From: a virus
IMG/VR virus record: IMGVR_UViG_3300043392_000039
Span: 1 to 35,303 of that record
DNA: 35,303 nucleotides
Strand: one strand, 5' to 3'
In this document: positions 4,650 to 35,303 of the stretch, piece after piece
How positions within the stretch are numbered: position 1 is the stretch's first letter
How the letters are laid out: each line of letters begins with the position of its first letter
The notes under the pieces: model-generated
Database searches by the model: none
What the model was told of the DNA's origin: nothing
The model's input: only the letters and a program-made list of their open reading frames with translations
Position numbers and translations under genes: made by a program

Positions 4650-4807
4650 TAACCCTAACTTAAATGTTGCTATAAAGTTAGATTTGTTGGCATAAGCAAT
4701 GATGCACGAACAAGGGTTGGATGAGCCGAATATTACGCCTCCTCGTGAATATTACCAACTTAAATGTAAAGATATTCTGACTGATGGAAAGACATCATTT
4801 TTTTTTT
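4650..4807 (+). ncRNA. Candidate structured small RNA with terminator
   Basis: The segment downstream of rusA is noncoding and folds well by eye. AACCC (4651-4655) pairs with GGGTT (4714-4718) and encloses two hairpins: TAACTT (4656-4661) with AAGTTA (4675-4680), and TTGTT plus GCAT (4684-4693) with ATGC and AACAA (4702-4713). A third hairpin, ACG-CCTCCT-CGT (4735-4746), exposes a CCUCCU loop and is flanked by two copies of GAATATTAC. It ends with TGATG-GAAAGA-CATCA and a T10 tract (4782-4807), a textbook intrinsic terminator. I match it to no known RNA family and see no clear promoter of its own. It could also be a structured 3' end of the rusA message. Confidence 0.5.
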
Positions 4808-20536: not shown

Positions 20537-21127
20537 CTAATCTTCTTTTTGCCCTATTGGACTAATCCAACAATCTTCCGTATAAACCTTTGTATAATAA
20601 GCCAAATTTACATTATCTGAACCACTACTACAACTTAAATGCTTTTCCAATGTTGGGTATGATTCCGTTTCATCGTAGATAGTATCTAAGTTAGTCCAAG
20701 TTACGGCATTTAATGCAGTTGATTCAGGGTCTAAAGAGTAGTTAAATTCGATTTCCCCTGAGATTTTCTTCATCTCTAACCAAACACCTTCGGTAACTCC
20801 TAAAGTGGCTGAAACGCCAAAAGAAATGCTTCCATCGACCTTTGTTCTACGATATATCTTTAACTCCCCATTGCCATCAAGAAACATTCCAACAAATGGA
20901 ACATTATTCTTTGCCTCTTGGCGAAATTGTAAACCAGCTTTTGCTTCAGTTGTGTCAAATGTAAAGGTGTTTAAGTATGCTACTAATCTAAATTCGGGTA
21001 ATGTTTCTGTCCATCCATAGACATATCCTGTATCAGTAGAAGTGGCAAAGTCGCCACTCCCATACATCTCAATCGCTGAACGACTAACATAATAAAAATA
21101 TCCTATTTCTCTTGTTTCTATTGGCAT
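20537..21127 (-). CDS. Probable baseplate or fibre-connecting protein
   Basis: A 196-residue, beta-rich protein starting MPIETREIGYFYYVSR. The segments AGLQFRQEAKNNVPFVGMFL, GNGELKIYRRTKVDGS and GVWLEMKKISGEIEF suggest a concanavalin-like jelly roll that may bind carbohydrate. It lies between the tail-tip gene and the fibres. The -1 frameshift extension of the upstream gene ends 2 bases before its start codon, which would couple the two. Confidence 0.6.
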   Translation of the reverse strand: MPIETREIGYFYYVSRSAIEMYGSGDFATSTDTGYVYGWTETLPEFRLVAYLNTFTFDTTEAKAGLQFRQEAKNNVPFVGMFLDGNGELKIYRRTKVDGSISFGVSATLGVTEGVWLEMKKISGEIEFNYSLDPESTALNAVTWTNLDTIYDETESYPTLEKHLSCSSGSDNVNLAYYTKVYTEDCWISPIGQKED

Positions 21128-21129
21128 TG

Positions 21130-21239
21130 TTATTCGGGTATAAAATCATCCATAAAGAAGGCAACAAACTTGTCGAACAATGAGCCTGCACCACCTGCTT
21201 GACCAAGGTCAGTACCTACCCCATTACGATTTTTTTTTT
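21130..21239 (-). other. Probable -1 frameshift site and C-terminal extension
   Basis: An A10 run (21230-21239 on the - strand) lies four codons before the stop of the tail-tip gene. The zero frame reads AAA AAA AAA ATC and stops soon after (IVMG). A -1 slip on A AAA AAA opens 33 more residues, including VGTDLGQAGGAGSLFDKFVA and ending FMDDFIPE, which look like real protein and stop at 21130. Without it the region would be an 88-base gap in an otherwise gapless operon. A miscounted homopolymer (A11) would give the same fusion constitutively. Confidence 0.6.
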
Positions 21240-23171
21240 AGAGGAACTAAGTTCCTGATACACGATGTTGTTTTCAACATCAAATAGTGTACAATTTATT
21301 GAAGGCTCAATCTCATTTGGAGTAAGTTCCATGAACACAACCTCGGCAGTACAATCTCTTTCGTTAAACTTCATTGAAAGAGGGAAGAACTTTTTATCAG
21401 CTAATGCACCTTGAACGGGGAAGTTATAAATAGCACCATACTCTAAGTTCTTACCTATAATAGTACCCGTGAAGATATTACGATAATCTGAATATTGATT
21501 AAGAACATTTCTTACCGATAATTCTTGAATCTTATACCCGTATTCCTCGTTTCTTTCGTAATATGTTTCACTTAATGTATATCCATTGCTTGTAATGTTT
21601 GATTCATCAGTAATAGTAGTAACTCCATCTTGCTTTAAGATGTAACTACCATTAAATACCTCAATTGTACTTGGGTTAATTGAAGTGTCCTTCGGGTTGG
21701 TAGCAATTGTACTTTCAACATTATATGGCAATACTGTATTAGCGCCATAGGTTGATTCAGCATTAAAATAGGTTATAATTTGATTATATAACCCCTCAAA
21801 AGCTGGATAGAAATACATTCTAAAGTAAACTGTTCCATCATAAGGAACACTTACATTGGTTTCCGATATAATATCAGTTTTGTATATTGAAGGGTTTGAT
21901 GTTCCCCAAGTCCCACTAACTAAATACTTTGTTGTTTGACTTGGAGCTTCTAATCTCACTTCAAATCCTACATAAGATAAAACTCCTAATGTGTAAGAGA
22001 ATGTTTCATCGTTAGCGACAAATACACTTGTTTCAATGTATGCACCAATATCATTAAATGATACACCCCATTCATTTGTTGAATTATTTAAACAAGGATA
22101 CACATTGCCACCATGAGTAAAAGATGTCCAAGCAAATGGTGTAGGAGGTGTGCCTGATGCAGTATCAAGAACAGTTAAGGTAGCATCACCACCTAAGCCA
22201 TCTGTTTGATATTTTGCATAGGTGTATATCCCTGGAATATCCTTTGTAAAAATATTGAAATTGCTATTAAAAATAGCATCACCATTATAATACTGATAAT
22301 CAATTTGTGCTTGCTTATAGAATCTACGAATCTTTCTTTTTGGCTCTGCTACAATCAAGAAATCAGTTCCGTGATTATATTGATTTACAGTACCACTACC
22401 AATGTACAATCCATCTTTATCATACTTATCTGTTGTATAAATACCAAAAGCTAAATCCTTAGGCTTAATAATAAACCATTGCCCTCTATTTTGATACATT
22501 ACAACATTAAACAAATAGGAGATAGACTTCATAATTACATCAACCCCCAATGGTTGATTTCCTTTTTGTCTAAATACATTAGTGTATGTGCCTACCAAAT
22601 CAATGATTCTATCAATAGGCAATGGATTCTTATTCTTTAATTTCAGTAAGATATTAAACTCATAATTATATCCAATAAATCTTAAAGCACTTGCAATAAT
22701 ATCTTTAAACGAATTAAATCCATAAAGCACACGACCATTAGTTTCTCTTAATGTTGCGTTCTTAAATGCACTCAATCCATCAATAGTCTTAAATTCAATA
22801 GCAGGGTATTTCAAGAATATATCTTCTTCACATAACTCTGGAGAAACAAATCCTGTCCAAAATAAAGCACCATCACGATAGTATTCTAACACATATTCTT
22901 TCTCATCCTCGGAGATAATAGAATCCATGTCAATTGCACCACCTAATACTTTAAATGACAACACACTACCACGAATAGGGTAGAAGATGTCATCATCTGC
23001 CGTAGGATAGTCAATCTCAACGGGAGTAGCTTGACCATAAGGTATCTCGGTTATATCACCACTATATCCCTTCTTTAAGATTAATACTTTACACTTTGTA
23101 GTTAATAGAGTTGCAAATGGTTTGCAAGTCCCATCAAATTCAAACTTGTATTTAGTTCCGTATCCTATCAT
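21216..23171 (-). CDS. Tail tip / distal tail protein
   Basis: A 651-residue protein directly after the tape measure gene, the position of distal-tail and tail-associated proteins in siphoviruses. It starts MIGYGTKYKFEFDGTCKPFA; the N-terminal 150 residues (YVLEYYRDGALFWTGFVSPE) resemble proteins common in Bacteroidota phages. The middle is beta-rich and the end is NNIVYQELSSSKKKIVMG. It overlaps the tape measure gene by 4 bases. A -1 frameshift on the terminal A10 run would replace the last four residues and give a 680-residue form ending at 21130. Confidence 0.7.
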   Translation of the reverse strand: MIGYGTKYKFEFDGTCKPFATLLTTKCKVLILKKGYSGDITEIPYGQATPVEIDYPTADDDIFYPIRGSVLSFKVLGGAIDMDSIISEDEKEYVLEYYRDGALFWTGFVSPELCEEDIFLKYPAIEFKTIDGLSAFKNATLRETNGRVLYGFNSFKDIIASALRFIGYNYEFNILLKLKNKNPLPIDRIIDLVGTYTNVFRQKGNQPLGVDVIMKSISYLFNVVMYQNRGQWFIIKPKDLAFGIYTTDKYDKDGLYIGSGTVNQYNHGTDFLIVAEPKRKIRRFYKQAQIDYQYYNGDAIFNSNFNIFTKDIPGIYTYAKYQTDGLGGDATLTVLDTASGTPPTPFAWTSFTHGGNVYPCLNNSTNEWGVSFNDIGAYIETSVFVANDETFSYTLGVLSYVGFEVRLEAPSQTTKYLVSGTWGTSNPSIYKTDIISETNVSVPYDGTVYFRMYFYPAFEGLYNQIITYFNAESTYGANTVLPYNVESTIATNPKDTSINPSTIEVFNGSYILKQDGVTTITDESNITSNGYTLSETYYERNEEYGYKIQELSVRNVLNQYSDYRNIFTGTIIGKNLEYGAIYNFPVQGALADKKFFPLSMKFNERDCTAEVVFMELTPNEIEPSINCTLFDVENNIVYQELSSSKKKIVMG

Positions 23172-25369
23172 TGTCTGCCTGTTACTCTAAGTGTTGTTTC
23201 TAAAGATTTATTAATTTGATAACCCGTTTGAGTTGCCGTAATTGCTCCCGTTAAGTCAATAGCTAATCTAATAGTTTGTGCCGAATAAGATGAACCACCA
23301 TAAGTATAATTACTACCCGATGACTTTTGAGCAACCGATTGAGTTTGACCACTAGTACCTGCTGATTCCTTTGGCTTAGATAATGCAGAACTTACTCCTT
23401 TCAGCAACCCACCGACTGCCATTAATGCCAAACCTCCAAGTAATCCTGCCGTAGCACCTGCTGGGCTAAACATGGAAGTTAAAAATGATTGAACTGCAAT
23501 CATTGCCTTAGAAGCCATTACAATACCAAGACCAATTTTAACAAACATATCTCCAAGAGCACCTAATATACCTGCACCAAACTTTTTAATTGCATCACCA
23601 GCACTTCCTCCTTCACCAATAAAAGAAAACATATCAGCAAATTGAGAAGCGACACTTTGTGTCATTTCGTCAACCGAAGCACTAATTACATTGGCAACAC
23701 CAAGAAATGCCATCTTCATCTTTTCGGCAGTGTCTTGTGCTATTTTTAATGCTATTTGTGTAGATGCACCAAATTTAGCTAATTGCTCATCTGATAGTGC
23801 CTTACCAAGCATTCCACCCTCCATTCCTGGTAGTGGCTTGATTAGTTTCATCAACGCACCCTTTCTTTCTGATTCAATCTCACCTTGCAATTGAGCAACC
23901 TTCAGCAAGTATAATCTTGTAATATTTGCGGTATCAATTCCATATCGCTGAAATTCAGCCTTCTCTTTATTGAAAGCATCAGTTAAATCAGCTAATTTCT
24001 TTTTACTTCCCTGTAATCCAATGTTATTAATCTCAGCAATTGCATCAGCACTCATTTGTTGAAGTTTCTTCAAATGTGTACCATATTCCTTAGTTTGGAA
24101 ATCAGTTCCAACAATGACTTCAACCTTTTCAGTTTTACGACCTGTTGATTGTTTCTTACTTGGATTTTCACTTAATCCTGTAAGTTGAGAATCATCAACT
24201 TTTGGCAACTCTAATGGTTTTGCATTATCAATCTTTGTGAATTTTCCAATTAACCAATCAAGTGCCTTGCCAAGAAATTCTATTCCATGAATAAAATCGT
24301 AAATCTTTTTATAAATATTAGCAAAGAAATTAATAATAGGCTTATAGACATTATTCACCATAAACATGAATACACCAACAAGCCCTTGCCAAAGATTTAT
24401 TAACCCAATTAATGCAGCAGTCAATCCTTTTACAACTAACTTAATGCCTTCAATAGCTAATGATAATAATTGAGCAACTGATTCATTTGATTGCATAGCA
24501 GTTTTAAAGTCATTCATAAATGACAATATACCACTTACTGCACCCTTTAAATCAAATGCTTTAGCCATGGAATCACCCATTTCTGCTAATGCAAAACTTA
24601 CACTTTCAGATAATTTATTGAATTGACCTTGTAGTGTTTGTGATTGCTCATCAGCCATTCCGAAGAATTGACCTCCTTTGCTTGTAGCTGATATAAAAGC
24701 ATCGCCAACTTCCTTAACAGATATTTGACCATCGTGCATTCTTTGTGTCAAAGAAGCCATAGATTCCCCTGTCGCATCTGAAATAGCTTTCAATGGGTTA
24801 AACCCTGCGTTAATCATTTGGCGAGCCTCTTGACCCATCAAACGACCCGATGCGTTTACTTGACCAAATGCTAATGCTAAACGATTAAATCTGTCTGCAT
24901 TACCACCAGAAATATCACCCAACATCCTTGTAATAGGAACAACTTGTTGAGCAGTTAAGCCATATTGTAATAATGTTTGAGCACCCTTTGTAATGTCTTG
25001 GAATTGCATTGGCGACTTTAATGCTTGATTTTTTAAATCAGCAAGCATATTTTTCGCAACCTCTGCACTACCCGTAAATACTCTAAATGAAACCGATATT
25101 TGCTCTAATTCAGCAGCAGTTGTAAGTGCAGCTTTACCTATTCCAATAATAGCAGTCGTAATTCCAGCAGTAGTAAGTGCCAATCCCATTGCACCAAATG
25201 CTTGAGATATTGACTTAGCAGTAGTATCCATGCTACCACTAATTCGATTACCACTTCTTTGCGTAGAAGATGCTAATTGAGATAATTGAGATGACAAACG
25301 ATTAAGTTTGTTCATCGCATCATCTACATCTGCTCCAATCTTTATATAAAACTCATTAGTTTCTGCCAT
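23168..25369 (-). CDS. Tape measure protein
   Basis: A 733-residue protein. A tape-measure domain occupies about residues 60-270: SVSFRVFTGSAEVAKNMLAD, MQFQDITKGAQTLLQYGL, GRLMGQEARQMINAGFNPLK. Hydrophobic segments at about 55-80, 300-345 and 610-665 and long helical parts (NKEKAEFQRYGIDTA) are typical. It sets tail length and is ejected into the host envelope; by the usual rule of about 0.15 nm per residue, the tail would be roughly 110 nm. It follows the G/GT chaperone genes that shield it during assembly. Confidence 0.9.
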   Translation of the reverse strand: MAETNEFYIKIGADVDDAMNKLNRLSSQLSQLASSTQRSGNRISGSMDTTAKSISQAFGAMGLALTTAGITTAIIGIGKAALTTAAELEQISVSFRVFTGSAEVAKNMLADLKNQALKSPMQFQDITKGAQTLLQYGLTAQQVVPITRMLGDISGGNADRFNRLALAFGQVNASGRLMGQEARQMINAGFNPLKAISDATGESMASLTQRMHDGQISVKEVGDAFISATSKGGQFFGMADEQSQTLQGQFNKLSESVSFALAEMGDSMAKAFDLKGAVSGILSFMNDFKTAMQSNESVAQLLSLAIEGIKLVVKGLTAALIGLINLWQGLVGVFMFMVNNVYKPIINFFANIYKKIYDFIHGIEFLGKALDWLIGKFTKIDNAKPLELPKVDDSQLTGLSENPSKKQSTGRKTEKVEVIVGTDFQTKEYGTHLKKLQQMSADAIAEINNIGLQGSKKKLADLTDAFNKEKAEFQRYGIDTANITRLYLLKVAQLQGEIESERKGALMKLIKPLPGMEGGMLGKALSDEQLAKFGASTQIALKIAQDTAEKMKMAFLGVANVISASVDEMTQSVASQFADMFSFIGEGGSAGDAIKKFGAGILGALGDMFVKIGLGIVMASKAMIAVQSFLTSMFSPAGATAGLLGGLALMAVGGLLKGVSSALSKPKESAGTSGQTQSVAQKSSGSNYTYGGSSYSAQTIRLAIDLTGAITATQTGYQINKSLETTLRVTGRQ

Positions 25370-25662
25370 TACTCAATAGAATTAACCCACTTTTTAACTA
25401 TTTCATCCGAAAGATACTCTTTTTCTTTTGATTTTTCTAAATCCTTGCCTATATTGTCAATCCACAATGGTACAAGGTCTTTAGGTTGTTTCATATCCTT
25501 ACCTCCCATTGCAGCCAAAGATGCCCACATAATATTTCTTGTAACATCCCATTGCTCTGCCTTCCTAAACTCAAAGCCGTGTTCATAGTCAAGAAATTCT
25601 CCTAAAGTCATTCTTTTCCACTCCCACGGCTTCAAACCTGTTCTATAAATTCTTGTAAGCAT
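25369..25662 (-). CDS. Tail assembly chaperone, T part of G-T fusion
   Basis: A 97-residue frame (from ATG 25662) that is most likely read as the C-terminal part of a G-T fusion via -1 frameshift at 25683-25692. The -1 frame is open without interruption from the slippery site, reading VEITWSNMLTRIYRTGLKPW. The residues KPWEWKRMTLGEFLDYEHGF match the T-domain style of such chaperones. The fusion would be 227 residues. It overlaps the tape measure gene at a single base. Confidence 0.8.
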   Translation of the reverse strand: MLTRIYRTGLKPWEWKRMTLGEFLDYEHGFEFRKAEQWDVTRNIMWASLAAMGGKDMKQPKDLVPLWIDNIGKDLEKSKEKEYLSDEIVKKWVNSIE

Positions 25663-25679: not shown

Positions 25680-26051
25680 CTACTTTTTTTTTGCTTGCGT
25701 AGCTTTTGGTGCATCTAAATCACTCGGCATTAAATCCTTAGTAATCCATTCTACAACAGTAATTACTTGAGTTTGCATCAACCATTTTGTTGCAATCATT
25801 TTAGCACTCTTAATCTTTGTGATTAAGGCATCAGCATCTTCTTCATGACCATTGATGTATAGCCAATAAATATGACCACTAAGCATCATATCACGAGTTA
25901 CCTCAATAAGTTTAGATGGATTGCTTTCATACTCTTGCATATTAATTAAGTCATTGAAGTCGCCTCCTAACTCCTTAACATACACATCATTAATGCTTCC
26001 TAAAGAAAAGTCAAAGTTGATTTTTTTGCCTTCAAAAGTAATACTTCTCAT
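25680..26051 (-). CDS. Tail assembly chaperone G
   Basis: A 123-residue protein starting MRSITFEGKKINFDFSLG and ending KATQAKKK. It lies between the major tail protein and the tape measure, the standard place of the lambda G-type chaperone, which coats the tape measure before tail tube polymerisation. The ATG at 26051 is preferred; a TTG at 26078 would start inside the terminator that follows the major tail gene. Its last codons contain the slippery A AAA AAG. Confidence 0.8.
   Translation of the reverse strand: MRSITFEGKKINFDFSLGSINDVYVKELGGDFNDLINMQEYESNPSKLIEVTRDMMLSGHIYWLYINGHEEDADALITKIKSAKMIATKWLMQTQVITVVEWITKDLMPSDLDAPKATQAKKK
25683..25692 (-). other. Programmed -1 frameshift site (G to G-T)
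   Basis: On the - strand the sequence GCA AAA AAA AAG TAG contains the heptamer A AAA AAG, the same slippery sequence as E. coli dnaX, next to the G stop codon. A -1 slip joins frame G to the T frame with no intervening stop. This arrangement is conserved in most long-tailed phages. Confidence 0.85.
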
Positions 26052-26076
26052 GTTTTTTGTGTTTGTGGGTTTAAAC

Positions 26077-26105
26077 AAAAAGGGTGAAGAACTAAATCCT
26101 CACCC
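26077..26105 (-). terminator. Terminator after the major tail gene
   Basis: On the - strand GGGTGA pairs with TCACCC (26082-26105) across a 12-base loop, followed by TTTTTG. It lies between the major tail protein and chaperone G, so only part of the transcripts should continue into the chaperones and tape measure. Confidence 0.75.
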
Positions 26106-35176: not shown

Positions 35177-35303
35177 AAAAAAAAAAGCCCTTGCAATAGG
35201 ATACTTGTATCTATTAAGGTATGAACAAATAACCACCATATAGCACCCCATATAAAGCCCCATATCTTCCACCTAATGAGCTCAAATAGGTATGCAAGTA
35301 CAA
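35177..35303. repeat. Terminal direct repeat, right copy
   Basis: Identical to bases 1-127. Removing one copy gives a circular unit of 35,176 bp. Confidence 0.95.

Follow-up and report, generated by a model that had tools for sequence, protein, structure and literature searches.

A conserved poly-A run with two frame states at the end of a phage tail-tip gene, a probable site of RNA-polymerase slippage

The tail operon and the end of the tail-tip gene

The window, meaning the whole stretch of DNA that was analyzed (35,303 nucleotides), is an IMG/VR virus record (IMGVR_UViG_3300043392_000039), and the relatives with which it was compared are contigs from metagenomic assemblies. Its minus strand carries a tail operon with genes for the portal, the major head protein, the major tail protein, a chaperone pair, the tape measure, the tail tip, a 196-aa protein, and the tail fibre (Table 1). 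The tail-tip gene is preceded by the tape-measure gene, which was recognized by means of PHROGs. Distant relatives of the tail tip are annotated structural proteins of the Cellulophaga phages phi17:1, phi18:1, and phi12:1, and distant homologues occur in Cellulophaga and Flavobacterium phages. No match bearing on the fold of the tail tip was found in Pfam. The AlphaFold model of the tail tip of one relative (L031) was of moderate quality (mean pLDDT 66.5), and a Foldseek search with this model retrieved carbohydrate-binding jelly-roll modules (CBM22, CBM36, and CBM4) that aligned over ~150 columns in the middle of the protein. Based on this likeness, the jelly-roll-like middle of the tail tip may be its receptor-binding part. 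The downstream 196-aa gene had no match in Pfam or PHROGs. One distant contig (3300046804_003453, L006/L116) has an apparent frame break in the core of its tail-tip gene near residue 138, ahead of the A10 site, which may be a sequencing error.

Table 1 Features at the 3' end of the tail-tip gene and the site used for comparison. Positions refer to the window.
Feature	Position	Strand	Basis
Tail-tip gene, zero-frame ORF (putative short product, 651 aa, ends SSSKKKIVMG)	21216..23171	-	ORF list; distant relatives; tape-measure neighbour
Predicted hairpin AGGAAC-UUA-GUUCCU, 2 nt 5' of the run	21242..21256	-	RNAfold -5.6 kcal/mol
A10 run, candidate slippage site (T10 on the + strand)	21230..21239	-	Sequence; conservation; no AAG at the three Lys codons
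C-terminal extension, 33 residues, -1 frame	21133..21231	-	Peptide kept in all 48 contigs; pN/pS
TAA in the third frame (reached when A10 loses one A)	21224..21226	-	Overlapping Arg CGT / Ser TCT invariant at third base
TAG ending the short form	21216..21218	-	Overlapping Val/Ile codon always GTA or ATA
TAA ending the long form, 2 nt ahead of the next start codon	21130..21132	-	Sequence
196-aa gene downstream, perhaps coupled to the extension at the level of translation	20537..21127	-	Conserved neighbour
Comparison site, A9 then G, in the tail-assembly chaperone gene (25680-26078), -1 into 25369-25662	25684..25692	-	A9G in nearly all relatives

In mRNA sense, the tail-tip ORF ends with ...TCT AAA AAA AAA ATC GTA ATG GGG TAG, and the run of exactly ten A lies four codons ahead of the stop codon of this 651-aa gene. 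A first-pass annotation of the window, which had left the strand of the site unnamed (it is the minus strand), described the 651-residue ORF with its stop four codons past the A10 run correctly in every detail. As it also stated, the -1 frame stays open over 33 residues (NRNGVGTDLGQAGGAGSLFDKFVAFFMDDFIPE followed by the stop codon) and terminates 2 bases ahead of the next ATG (21127), and the 88-base gap between the listed ORFs corresponds to positions 21128-21215.

Runs of ten or more A were present at least once in 58% of synonymous shuffles of the genes (mean 0.81). Chance thus suffices to explain an A10 run, and we rejected the notion that the run is surprising by itself; what goes beyond chance is its conservation. 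Further runs of ten A or ten T lie outside the main genes at positions 1-10 (the very start of the record), 4798-4807, and 35177-35186 of the window.

Conservation of the run and the extension in two frame states

Peptide and DNA scans of IMG/VR yielded 48 contigs, the window included, whose tail tips share identities down to 36-38%. All 48 contigs possess A10 or A11 at the site together with the extension peptide, and the run is uninterrupted and never shorter than ten A. Even lineage L108-L118, the most distant one (38% identity) with a peptide that has diverged to NSNGIGTDLGQAGKEGTIFDTFTVFYLDDFVP, still has the frame open. Six further matches to a degenerate DNA pattern (L061, L066, and L068-L071) lacked the extension and were discarded as chance hits. 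Some of the scans had used peptides that cover the Lys codons, and the test was repeated from the downstream gene alone. Each of the 45 loci fetched in this way, which were not selected on the run, contained A10 (34 loci) or A11 (11 loci) ~100 nt upstream of the downstream gene, always followed by the TAG in the alternative frame. These loci largely represent the same contigs, so that they serve as a check for selection bias and not as extra independent phages. The run and the open -1 extension were hence kept in every relative examined, and no homologue without an open extension was encountered among them. Run and extension were absent from the distant homologues in Cellulophaga phages and in Flavobacterium phage 11b, and the extension was not found in the cultured phages or bacterial genomes that were searched.

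Relative to the upstream part of the tail-tip gene, the extension was out of frame in 23 of the 48 contigs (window included) and in frame in the other 25. Within the out-of-frame group, pN/pS was 0.22 in the frame of the extension, compared to 0.97 and 1.87 in the other two frames. The extension thus evolves as a protein under purifying selection in this group, and its first-pass description as reading like real protein was borne out. Together with the conservation of the run and the extension, this protein-like evolution lends good support to the earlier proposal that the phage has a second frameshift site besides that in the chaperone gene. The extension is predicted to be disordered in the monomer, which fits a flexible tail for docking or assembly, probably supplied by the long form. 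In nearly all loci, the stop codon of the extension is positioned within a few nucleotides of the ATG that follows, most commonly 5 nt ahead of it, and reading through the extension may therefore couple translation to the next gene.

The in-frame state arises either by A11 (e.g., in L031) or by A10 with different following bases (L043, L052, and L060). Conversely, L038 (GCG after the run) and L044 (A11 and then CG) are out of frame with other bases past the run, and these two contrast with their neighbours L039 and L040, which are in frame. When only well-supported branches of the core-protein tree were considered, at least three changes of frame state were counted, and parsimony gave four. 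Run length was uniform inside each close clade across different metagenomes. One clade with the extension in frame has a codon starting with T or C after the KKK; its preceding Ser codon is TCA, so that the run still reaches A10. Two contigs (L023 and L024) share a near-identical extension module despite very different tail-tip cores, which points to the movement of this 3' module between phages by recombination. Change counts on the core tree are therefore approximate, and the neighbouring codons of the extension were used as an internal control for them.

Codon usage and RNA structure around the run

All three Lys codons of the run were AAA in each of 35 representatives, and AAG never occurred there, although the two codons are used about equally in these genes (687 AAA and 711 AAG, i.e., 49% and 51%). 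On the tree, not a single codon change was found at the three Lys columns of the run, compared to a mean of 7.2 changes (range 3 to 9) at five other invariant Lys columns. A similar restriction applies to two codons downstream of the run. The Arg before Asn is always encoded by CGT (19% of the Arg codons in these genes; AGA accounts for 62%), or replaced by Ser TCT in one lineage, and Val is always GTA (35% of the Val codons), or ATA where the residue is Ile. This codon choice has the effect that both non-extension frames stop at once, at TAA and TAG, respectively, and the presence of stops near the run in both alternative frames would give a defined short product. Along the columns K K K R N G V, we counted 0, 0, 0, 0, 5, 6, and 0 third-base changes. 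The means were 5.4 at the other columns of the extension and 6.4 in the core, and neighbouring codons changed 5-8 times (5-7 times for the adjoining Gly, Thr, Asp, and Leu codons).

The five columns with zero counts lacked third-base changes within the in-frame group as well as within the out-of-frame group, and the TAG of the short form is also kept in the in-frame relatives, where it lies in the +1 frame. Judged from these alignments, the run is maintained irrespective of which product would be the default, and so are the early stops in the two non-extension frames. The codon constraint shared by the two groups argues that slippage, and not one particular frame arrangement, is what is conserved. 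Slippage itself thus appears to be under selection, with short and long tail tips expected from either allele.

The predicted hairpin directly 5' of the run (Table 1) is kept in L022 by a paired synonymous change from G-C to A-U (CAG..TCC in the window, CAA..TCT in L022). Most clades have a hairpin ending 1-4 nt 5' of the run, with a sequence that differs between clades. By folding stability, 11 of 18 tail-tip contexts ranked in the most stable ~6% of windows, compared to none of 25 at the chaperone site. Three clades (L024/L025, L029-L037, and L052/L058) lack such a hairpin, and the idea that it is universal was rejected. On the 3' side, no structure beyond that expected from base composition was found in the 60 nt downstream (mean z of -0.25 for the out-of-frame and +1.1 for the in-frame group). 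Low-percentile folding energies had made a 3' stimulatory structure a candidate in the out-of-frame group, and they were explained by dinucleotide shuffles. A conserved SD-like element at the tail-tip site was looked for by eye and none was seen.

As a control we used the chaperone frameshift site of this operon, which follows an opposite grammar. In the zero frame its motif reads AAA AAA AAG, which is replaced in the L051 lineage by GGGAAAG, the lambda-type heptamer. Hence A9G or GGGAAAG without a 5' hairpin is found at the chaperone site, versus an uninterrupted run of 10-11 A in the tail-tip gene. In the chaperone pair of another contig (3300013295_000057), an A10 run results in an in-frame fusion.

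Candidate mechanisms and known slippage systems

We propose that programmed slippage takes place at the A10 run and favour slippage by RNA polymerase, to which we assign a probability of roughly two in three. This preference is based on the pure run of 10-11 A that never contains AAG, the hairpin in most clades, the lack of a detectable 3' structure, and the closure of both alternative frames. RNA polymerase, probably that of the host, would slip on the 9-10 bp rA:dT hybrid and produce mRNAs with one or more A added or lost. One register (A11 or A8 in the window) would allow translation through the 33-residue tail to its end just before the next gene, and the other two registers would run into the TAA or the TAG after a few codons and thus yield a clean short tail tip. 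For relatives of the A11 type the reverse would apply, with the long form made by default and the short form by slippage. In most lineages, slipping is probably stimulated by the nascent-RNA hairpin that lies immediately behind the hybrid. The conserved run, stops, extension, and frame states are features of the alignments; from them we infer the slipping of the polymerase, the role of the hairpin, the making of both proteins, and their functions. More tentatively, and with somewhat less than even confidence in the whole, we suggest that polymerase slippage and the nascent-RNA hairpin set the ratio of short to long tail tips, that single-base changes in or beside the run repeatedly flipped the default, and that the neighbouring chaperone gene uses ribosomal frameshifting instead.

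The first-pass annotation had named ribosomal or polymerase slippage as possible causes. The second fits the data better, and a -1 slip of the ribosome, which we consider unlikely, fits them less well. By that mechanism, tRNA-Lys would slip on A AAA AAA and thereby add the extension in A10 phages and cause early termination in A11 phages. The heptamer is present within the run, and runs of A also cause ribosomes to slip. Furthermore, the chaperone gene of these phages contains a site that is apparently ribosomal, and C-terminal extensions of structural proteins are made in this way in Lactobacillus phage A2 and the Listeria phages A118 and PSA (PMC5009743). Two observations count against the polymerase, namely the three clades that lack a 5' hairpin and the behaviour of a Roseiflexus element whose hairpin drives the loss of one base, whereas the extension in the window needs one A added or two lost. 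However, neither A AAA AAG nor another X XXY YYZ heptamer ever occurs at the tail-tip site, unlike at the chaperone site, and the full 10-11 A are kept where seven would do. A ribosomal slip also does not account well for the constraint on both alternative stops in both frame-state groups, or for the lack of a 3' structure, a common though dispensable stimulator of -1 shifts, and of a conserved SD-like element. Moreover, an adjoining 5' hairpin attenuates -1 frameshifting, also in a 70S system (PMC6321510).

It is highly improbable that the long form alone matters, with A10 being an indel that the phage tolerates thanks to rescue by slippage, as happens in insect endosymbionts. The strong conservation of the extension agrees with this explanation, and rescue by poly-A slippage is a known phenomenon (PMC5009743), but the in-frame phages need no rescue and nevertheless retain the three AAA codons and both stops unchanged. 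Hardly credible, too, is a phase-variable switch at the DNA level, in which slippage during replication would alternate between A10 and A11, and thus between short and long forms, with no recoding during individual infections. Homopolymers are prone to indels, and the frame state changed at least three to four times on the tree. However, such a switch conflicts with the uniform run length per close clade across different metagenomes and with the constraint on the AAA codons and both alternative stops within each state. Finally, the chance that sequencing or assembly errors hide a true A11 run and a single longer gene is negligible: homopolymers are error-prone and the core of L006/L116 has another apparent frame break, but the 23 contigs from several clades agree on the out-of-frame state (22 of them besides the window), L038 and L044 show this state with different bases downstream of the run, and sister lineages were resolved as in-frame A11, so that the assemblies do tell A10 from A11.

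Slippage by RNA polymerase at the tail-tip run would resemble several known systems. In dnaX of Thermus thermophilus, a long and a short form arise by transcriptional slippage at a 9-base homopolymer, and stop codons close the two alternative frames (PMC5009743); there are also split-ORF dnaX genes with A10 whose relatives have the long form in frame or out of frame (PMC5009743 and PMC3711429). The tail-tip site shares with dnaX the homopolymer, the close stops in both alternative frames, and the occurrence of both default states among relatives. It differs in that dnaX is a cellular DNA polymerase gene with a large extra domain, and that no 5' hairpin is reported there in the excerpted text. 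The type VI secretion genes tssM1 of Citrobacter rodentium and tssM3 of Yersinia pseudotuberculosis have A11 shortly ahead of a stop codon, and slippage that adds A produces the long form in one species and the short form in the other; C. rodentium needs both forms and their ratio (PMC4256274). A poly-A run near the stop and homologues that differ in the default form are common to tssM and the tail tip. However, tssM encodes a bacterial membrane protein and not a virion protein, no stimulating mRNA structure was found near its run (PMC4256274), and its slippage was proven by experiment, whereas that at the tail tip is proposed from sequence. The third system, an IS630 element of Roseiflexus, shows stem-loop-dependent transcriptional slippage with a hairpin directly 5' of the slip motif (PMC5009743). 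This position of the RNA hairpin is matched at the tail tip in most clades, but the Roseiflexus motif is a T5C5 heteropolymer that loses one C, unlike the pure A run whose extension needs a shift of +1 or -2.

Among phages, C-terminal extensions made by ribosomal frameshifting have been described for Lactobacillus A2, Listeria A118, A500, and PSA, and gene 10 of T3 and T7 (PMC5009743). Like the tail-tip site, these cases concern structural proteins with a frameshift near the stop, and in-frame and out-of-frame versions occur. However, these proteins belong to the capsid or the tail shaft, their sites have ribosomal signals, and many of them contain Ig-like domains, whereas the tail tip has a short tail, predicted to be disordered, and a polymerase-type site. 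The tail-assembly chaperone frameshift (lambda G/GT type) is alike in shifting by -1 within the tail operon of these phages and differs by its A9G or GGGAAAG motif without a 5' hairpin. No comparable phage case was found in our searches of open-licence papers. By its tested features, read from the DNA, the tail-tip site is a putative member of the dnaX/tssM type in a new place, the phage tail tip.

Gene callers would stop at the zero-frame stop codon and thus leave out a part that is among the more conserved of the tail-tip protein. A direct test would be a reporter in which the A10 run is changed to A11, AAGAAGAAG, or AAG codons. If our interpretation is right, two recoding mechanisms can be compared naturally within a single tail operon, and a virion gene of a phage would have two length variants of a receptor-end protein that are kept by selection despite flips of the frame in the DNA.
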